Source: Candidatus Omnitrophica bacterium CG11_big_fil_rev_8_21_14_0_20_64_10 (lineage in GTDB: Bacteria; Omnitrophota; Gorgyraeia; 1-14-0-20-64-10). Taken from it: a stretch of 36,733 nt of DNA. The translations under genes and the position numbers were made by a program. The DNA lies in the NCBI GenBank assembly GCA_002787095.1, contig PCVW01000032.1:12274-49006 (forward strand), read 5' to 3'. The notes beneath the pieces were generated by a model, which did not search any database, had not been told where the DNA came from, and saw only the letters and a program-made list of their open reading frames with translations. This document shows positions 16,891 through 17,768 of the stretch, one piece after another; within the stretch, counting starts at the first letter, position 1; each line of letters opens with the position of its first letter.

Positions 16891-16923
16891 AAAAAGCGGG
16901 CCCGGGAAAGTTCCCGGGCCCGC
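16891..16923 (-). terminator. Rho-independent terminator downstream of the cold-shock gene
   Basis: Perfect 12-bp stem GCGGGCCCGGGA-AAGT-TCCCGGGCCCGC (16896-16923) followed on the minus strand by TTTTT. Confidence 0.88.
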
Positions 16924-16945: not shown

Positions 16946-17161
16946 TTACGCGCTGGCCTCAGAGAGCCGCTTCACATTGGAAGCCTGCTCACCCTTGGGG
17001 CCGTTGGTGACATCGAACTCCACCGCCTCCCCTTCCTTCAGGGTCTTAAAACCAGCCGCCTGAATCGCCGAGAAATGGACGAAAACGTCCTTCCCGTTCT
17101 CCGGGGTGATGAAACCATACCCCTTCTGATCACTGAACCACTTCACAGTGCCTTTTGCCAT
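16946..17161 (-). CDS. csp: CspA-family cold shock protein
   Basis: [66 protein letters not shown]. Confidence 0.97.
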
Positions 17162-17341
17162 ATCGAAATTGGATAACCTTCCTTTCTTCGATGGCTGCCG
17201 ATCCCCGCCTGCCCACGGCAGGCGCTTTGGATCCGCGGGGGCCCCAAACAAGAAACGACCGGCGCCTAAGTAAGAGCGACCAGTCGTTTATTCGCCTTGA
17301 TTGTGCTCCTGCACAGCCACTTCAAACTTACTTATTGCAGG
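17162..17341 (-). promoter_or_regulatory. Long structured 5' leader of csp (candidate RNA thermosensor)
   Basis: Stems read directly: AAACGACUGG/CCGGUCGUUU, UAAGUAAG/CUUACUUA, GCCUGCC/GGCAGGC, AUCGAA/UUCGAU enclosing the SD. Confidence 0.6.
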
Positions 17342-17345
17342 TCTG

Positions 17346-17373
17346 AGTGTACCAAATTGGACCGGAATGTCAA
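17346..17373 (-). promoter_or_regulatory. Candidate csp promoter TTGACA-16 nt-TACACT
   Basis: Minus strand: -35 TTGACA (17368-17373), -10 TACACT (17346-17351). Confidence 0.65.
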
Positions 17374-17384
17374 GCGGAATTATG

Positions 17385-17390
17385 TATAAT
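17385..17390 (+). promoter_or_regulatory. Consensus -10 TATAAT, 9 nt upstream of ATG
   Basis: TATAATGGGCTCTCCATG read directly; no SD. Confidence 0.55.
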
Positions 17391-17399
17391 GGGCTCTCC

Positions 17400-17768
17400 A
17401 TGAAACTGACGCCCACGAATCCCCCCCGCCGCTTCCAGGTGGGAAACCCGGAACGACCGATCACCCTCTCCGAATGCGCCCGGATCACACTGGCGCCGGA
17501 TGAACTGATCACCCTGACCACCCCGGCCGGCGCCGAGGTGGACATCACCCGCAAGGCCTGGGGGTTCTACGGGACCCCTTCCCTAAATGACCGGCTGCCC
17601 CGTTTCGGGCTGCGGGCAGCCCTGGTTCGAGACGACGGCCAGAAGTACTTCATCCACCTGGTCGAACGGGCGATGCAGGCCGACTTCGAGACTTATCTCA
17701 AGCAACAGGGCTACCGGGTGGTCCTCTGGCTGGACGACACCGAAGCGCTGAAGAAGCTGGCGGGGTAG
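17400..17768 (+). CDS. Hypothetical protein, divergent from csp
   Basis: 122-aa ORF MKLTPTNPPRRFQVGNPERPITLSECARITLAPDELITLTTPAGAEVDITRKAWGFYGTPSLNDRL...; preceded by TATAAT. Confidence 0.75.
   Translation: MKLTPTNPPRRFQVGNPERPITLSECARITLAPDELITLTTPAGAEVDITRKAWGFYGTPSLNDRLPRFGLRAALVRDDGQKYFIHLVERAMQADFETYLKQQGYRVVLWLDDTEALKKLAG

Follow-up and report, generated by a model that had tools for sequence, protein, structure and literature searches.

The window analysed here, a stretch of 36,733 nucleotides, comes from a Candidatus Omnitrophota MAG of 1.7 Mb that is 92% complete. On its minus strand lies a csp gene for a small cold-shock domain protein, and the closest named csp records are mostly groundwater MAGs of Candidatus Omnitrophota. 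The gene is preceded by a near-consensus promoter, exactly as an initial annotation of this DNA had described it; no other promoter-like site was detected in 700 bp. Transcription most likely starts at a G seven nucleotides beyond the -10 element, because the spacing in relatives is nearly the same, and this start gives a csp leader of about 177 nt (Table 1). With its own promoter and its own strong terminator, csp reads as a separate transcription unit. The ORF on the far side of the promoter is divergent, so the hairpin in the leader does not mark the end of an upstream gene. A crude motif scan found no csp-clpX order in relatives.

Table 1. Features of the csp unit and its leader, from the promoter to the terminator, in coordinates of the window
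Feature	Position	Strand	Remark
csp promoter TTGACA-16-TACACT, TG before -10	17346..17373	-	near-consensus
Most likely transcription start, G	17338	-	7 nt after -10; 6-7 nt in relatives
5'-end element UAAGUAAG	17327..17334	-	partner of hairpin loop
AGUGGCU	17315..17321	-	possible partner of 17281-17275 until the 3' arm emerges; inner alternative fold, no significant covariation
P0, 5' strand (GAGA..UAGACAAG in relatives)	17295..17316	-	limits approximate
Terminator-like hairpin, 5' arm	17280..17289	-	
Loop strand CUUACUUA	17267..17274	-	partner of 5'-end element
Terminator-like hairpin, 3' arm	17253..17262	-	
U-run UUUCUUGUUU after stem	17246..17255	-	first three U also counted in 3' arm
P0, 3' strand	17233..17253	-	U-run and downstream G/C-rich part; limits approximate
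Insertion hairpin GCCUGCC-GUG-GGCAGGC	17207..17223	-	window genome only
Shine-Dalgarno (SD) region GAAAGGAAGG	17177..17186	-	conserved GGTTATCC overlaps its 3' end and extends beyond
csp coding sequence	16946..17161	-	71 aa cold-shock domain protein, PF00313, E 2.4e-30
Intrinsic terminator downstream of csp, strong	16896..16923	-	csp a separate transcription unit

Two elements form the core of what the initial annotation had described in the leader, and both were confirmed. The stem is exactly as reported, 10 bp with one G-U pair. The strand in its loop is perfectly complementary to an element near the 5' end of the RNA, and six of six same-type orthologues keep 7-9 bp of this match. The comparison rests on six relatives from the same family and order as the window (L003-L008), which together with it define the type A leader. 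All six keep the hairpin, and all seven type A leaders keep the helix between the 5' end and the loop. Covariation, which the annotation had named as a check, was found: at one helix position a G-C pair is exchanged for A-U in the window and in L008. Outside the alignment, L009, from the same family, forms the pairing with a wholly replaced sequence (UAGUUGUG/CAUAACUA), as does the paralogue L032 (AGUUUGAG/CUCAAACU). Because it is kept in every type A leader and replaced as a unit in these two, we judge from the sequences that the pairing is real; its covariation is thin, amounting to one pair in the alignment and two replacements outside it.

The leader as a whole is conserved among relatives and the sequence upstream of it is not. 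Folding of the entire leader is more stable than that of 200 out of 200 dinucleotide shuffles (z -2.7). A type A sequence model run against 384 genomes of the class found matches confined to the window's order, plus one weak paralogue. The second csp leader of the window genome (L002) has the hairpin and lacks the pairing of 5' end and loop. Taken together, the comparative data make it very probable that the leader structure and its conservation are real. Near the start codon, GAAGAAAGGAAGGTTATCC is nearly invariant in the window and L003-L008, including the GGTTATCC that lies beyond the Shine-Dalgarno core.

Three further features had gone unmentioned in the initial annotation: a U-run after the stem, a terminator-like score and an enclosing helix, here called P0. 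When the seven full leaders are folded with RNAalifold, GAGA..UGUAGACAAG before the hairpin pairs with UUUUGUUUA..GGUCUC after it. P0 thus pairs the U-run, and it is the best-covarying element of the leader. Both sides have changed in 7 of its 15 pairs. Its covariation score was reached by none of 500 shuffles, and the signal was destroyed when the partner was slid by 1-3 columns; deriving the structure from the very sequences under test inflates the sliding control and, less strongly, the shuffle control. L009 retains P0 in other letters (p 0.013); the window's P0 contains bulges and by itself gives p 0.19. Together with the hairpin and the loop pairing, P0 makes up a single compact domain that covaries.

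The hairpin and U-run sit between the promoter and the csp start codon, as expected of an attenuator. On a terminator score d of the d'Aubenton-Carafa type, the window reaches 16, and all 10 scorable leaders of the window's order score above zero. Terminator-like hairpins occur upstream of csp in 87 of 114 distinct leaders, against 19 of 114 dinucleotide shuffles, a few of the 87 (L020+1500, for example) belonging to the preceding gene and not to the csp unit; most lie 20-60 nt downstream of a near-consensus promoter. The U-run is not uniform. It is interrupted in the window (UUUCUUGUUU) and impure in L007 and L008 too, and these three leaders retain P0 in part or in full. Impure U-runs alongside a retained P0 suggest that selection acts on folding and not on termination alone.

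How might such a leader work? Our working model, which we consider somewhat better than an even bet, is a csp transcription attenuator with alternative pairings of the 5' end. RNA polymerase would start at about 17338, and the first 12 or so nucleotides of the transcript would hold the element able to pair with the future loop strand. Closure of the hairpin (17289-17253), with the U-run behind it, would tend to end transcription ahead of csp. If instead the 5' element, aided by 17321-17315, takes the loop strand first, the hairpin would be delayed and csp transcribed. In the read-through RNA, P0 would capture the U-run, and the pairing of 5' end and loop may persist on top of it as a pseudoknot. 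What the analysis itself shows is the anatomy of the leader and how it is conserved, the U-run, the covariation in P0, and different MFE folds before and after the 3' arm has emerged; that termination occurs, which way the switch works, and that its input is Csp protein and/or cold, we infer.

The alternative folds are those of the nascent RNA. A transcript that has reached 17263 is predicted to pair its 5' element with the loop strand and 17321-17315 with 17281-17275, at -20.7 kcal/mol (37 C); completion of the stem shifts the optimum to the terminator fold, at -31.5 kcal/mol. Such a change of fold upon emergence of the 3' arm is how an attenuator would behave. At equilibrium, the two alternatives lie close together in L003 and L007. 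The inner antiterminator helices carry no covariation signal in type A or in the type B leaders described below. In the window, the helix between 5' end and loop touches loop bases only; it is therefore possibly a pseudoknot, in which hairpin and 5'-end pairing would coexist, and not an antiterminator.

The initial annotation had proposed a temperature-responsive translational switch with an SD-masking hairpin. Its reading of the region as a leader RNA that regulates csp and pairs its 5' end with a loop is supported by the conservation and some covariation. The switch is not: its other structural elements are unconserved, the core is a hairpin followed by a U-run, and equilibrium folding without pseudoknots predicts one state from 0 to 60 C, with no switch between 0 and 37 C in the window. 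A kissing loop of CCUGCA and UGCAGG is present in the sequence; it was discarded, being absent from all relatives and having one half upstream of the likely +1. The hairpin at 17223-17207 exists, yet it is not part of the conserved element: it lies inside an insertion of about 34 nt that is missing from all six relatives. As a candidate mobile repeat it was rejected, being a single copy in the genome. The complementary AUCGAA and UUCGAU around the Shine-Dalgarno sequence are there as described; only one relative of six has an equivalent (L006, GUUGAA/UUCAAC), so that masking of the SD or AUG is not a conserved property of this leader. With an equilibrium temperature switch rejected as the mechanism, any effect of cold would have to be kinetic or mediated by Csp, and a switch of either kind would be invisible to equilibrium folding. 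Temperature or Csp is a plausible guess for the input. Csp proteins are known to influence terminators: those of E. coli are antiterminators, and those of B. subtilis apparently promote termination (PMC8307031, citing Bae 2000).

Leaders with a similar layout and different sequence occur in other Omnitrophota families. These type B leaders begin 5'-GUAGUAAAUAAGGG(A/G)UUAG and continue to a hairpin CCGYAAGG/CCUUGCGG and a run of 6-8 U. Their 5' AAGG..UUAG can pair with CUAA.CCUU, which is the terminator's own 3' arm; alternatives in other lineages include GAGU/ACUC and GAAUU/AAUUC. One type B leader, L059, belongs to Candidatus Velamenicoccus archaeovorus. Among 384 genomes of the class, a type B covariance model matches 226 (154 of the 221 good ones), and among 285 of the phylum it matches 176; these samples overlap and put type B in about 60-70% of sampled Omnitrophota. 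The model matches none of the 10 genomes that were fetched with csp records from other phyla (E<=0.001). In all 30 top matches inspected, the element lies directly upstream of a csp ORF. An energy permutation test for antiterminator coevolution in type B was significant; the reversed-sequence control was equally so, and for that reason these statistics are not counted.

A second possible partner of the type B 5' end is a segment ahead of the Shine-Dalgarno sequence (16 of 31 leaders), and the same segment can bury the SD-AUG spacer and the AUG in a hairpin (13 of 31). In several type B loci, among them L081, L084, L018, L020, L061 and L110, a segment ..CATTATTTACTAT.. that precedes the SD pairs with GTAGTAAATAATG, covering the SD and extending through the AUG, or alternatively with GTAGTAAAT at the RNA 5' end, a possible translational gate besides the hairpin. 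L020 (1082-2518) carries two csp genes in tandem, both with their own type B leader; matches to group II introns (RF02001, RF01998) come after them. A third class of csp leader, without similarity to types A or B, appears in L051, L064, L128, L134 and L030, with TTTTCAGC(C)TCAT near the 5' end and then a terminator-like hairpin with (A)AACCGTGGAGCU. A promoter, a short 5' segment and a terminator-like hairpin also precede csp in L058 and L062, both titled Nitrospirae, and in L038, titled Firestonebacteria; judging by these sequences, the layout may extend beyond Omnitrophota. That Omnitrophota csp attenuators in general are sensitive to cold or Csp, that the extreme 5' end decides between terminator and read-through, and that in type B this end also gates the ribosome site is a tentative generalization, and we think it doubtful in so broad a form.

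Could the leader instead act on translation, as in cspA, with a pseudoknotted cold form (P0 closed) that exposes the SD and a warm form that masks it? A passage in PMC4496569 describing Giuliodori 2010 reports just such a pseudoknot and a free SD in the cold form of E. coli cspA. In L003, L004 and L005, a CUCUUCC between the U-run and the ATG, beside P0, is complementary to the SD GGAAGG and could mask it, and the type B hairpins that can bury the AUG fit the same idea. In the window, however, the SD-masking parts are unconserved: CUCUUCC has been lost, an insertion standing in its place, and AUCGAA/UUCGAU recurs in a single relative. The equilibrium fold does not change from 0 to 37 C, and U-runs found across the phylum would be left unexplained. 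We regard this alternative as unlikely, and the leader as best explained by the attenuator model, not primarily as an SD-masking thermosensor. Somewhat less likely still is an element for mRNA stability, in which the 5' end, held in the hairpin loop on top of P0, would be shielded from ribonucleases and prolong the life of csp mRNA, perhaps only in the cold. The 5' element does begin about 5 nt from the likely +1, the three helices form a compact covarying domain, and stabilization of the cspA 5'UTR against RNase E in the cold has been described (PMC6239172). Protection of this kind would not account for a U-run after a G/C-rich stem in unrelated classes of csp leader.

Two further explanations rank lower still. 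A strong promoter and a terminator within about 95 nt would give a discrete short RNA, so that the main product of the leader might be a terminated small RNA and csp expression a matter of constitutive leak-through. We found no second promoter between the leader hairpin and csp, and the coevolution of loop and 5' end within the leader points to folding in cis; this reading is improbable. The least probable of all is that the hairpin is incidental and the complementarity due to chance. In its favour, the 8 bp between loop and 5' end, considered by themselves, have a chance probability of about 0.02 in the window sequence; against it stand the conservation across seven genomes in two families, the covariation of P0, and the recurrence of the arrangement throughout the phylum.

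The csp leaders are textbook examples of temperature control by RNA; the known cases come from a small number of cultured bacteria and mostly concern translation. An attenuator-like csp leader that runs through a phylum, is absent from Rfam and can be read in uncultured bacteria would, if the model is true, offer a second, testable route by which cold-shock genes are controlled and a simple model of how RNA chaperones regulate their own synthesis. In Rfam 15, no family matched the leader above its gathering score, nor at E<=10, and the covariance model of the cspA thermoregulator (RF01766) gave no match. The csp thermosensors found in the literature act on translation (PMC9947658, PMC4496569). 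A search of the open-access literature found no intrinsic attenuator in a csp leader, which leaves the absence of one unproven.

The E. coli cspA thermosensor (RF01766; Giuliodori et al. 2010) likewise has a long csp 5'UTR with alternative folds. Unlike it, the Omnitrophota leader has as its core a terminator-like hairpin, a U-run and an enclosing helix, and no equilibrium switch is predicted for it. Transcription also stops early in the 5'UTR/ORF of E. coli cspB and cspG, but there the stop is Rho-dependent, and here the signal looks intrinsic (PMC7815308). The cspB and cspC leaders of B. subtilis, with their cold-shock boxes, are regulatory csp 5'UTRs too, and point mutations near the box raise expression; no terminator hairpin has been described in them (PMC8307031). 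There is a formal likeness to terminator/antiterminator attenuators, both riboswitch-type and protein-controlled (B. subtilis pyr, for example), which share the succession of promoter, early 5' element, intrinsic-terminator-like hairpin and gene, and whose competing fold may have its counterpart here. The Omnitrophota leader differs from these in that the gene is csp and no ligand domain is seen, in that the very 5' end of the RNA would serve as the antiterminator, and in that the U-run is itself paired in P0.
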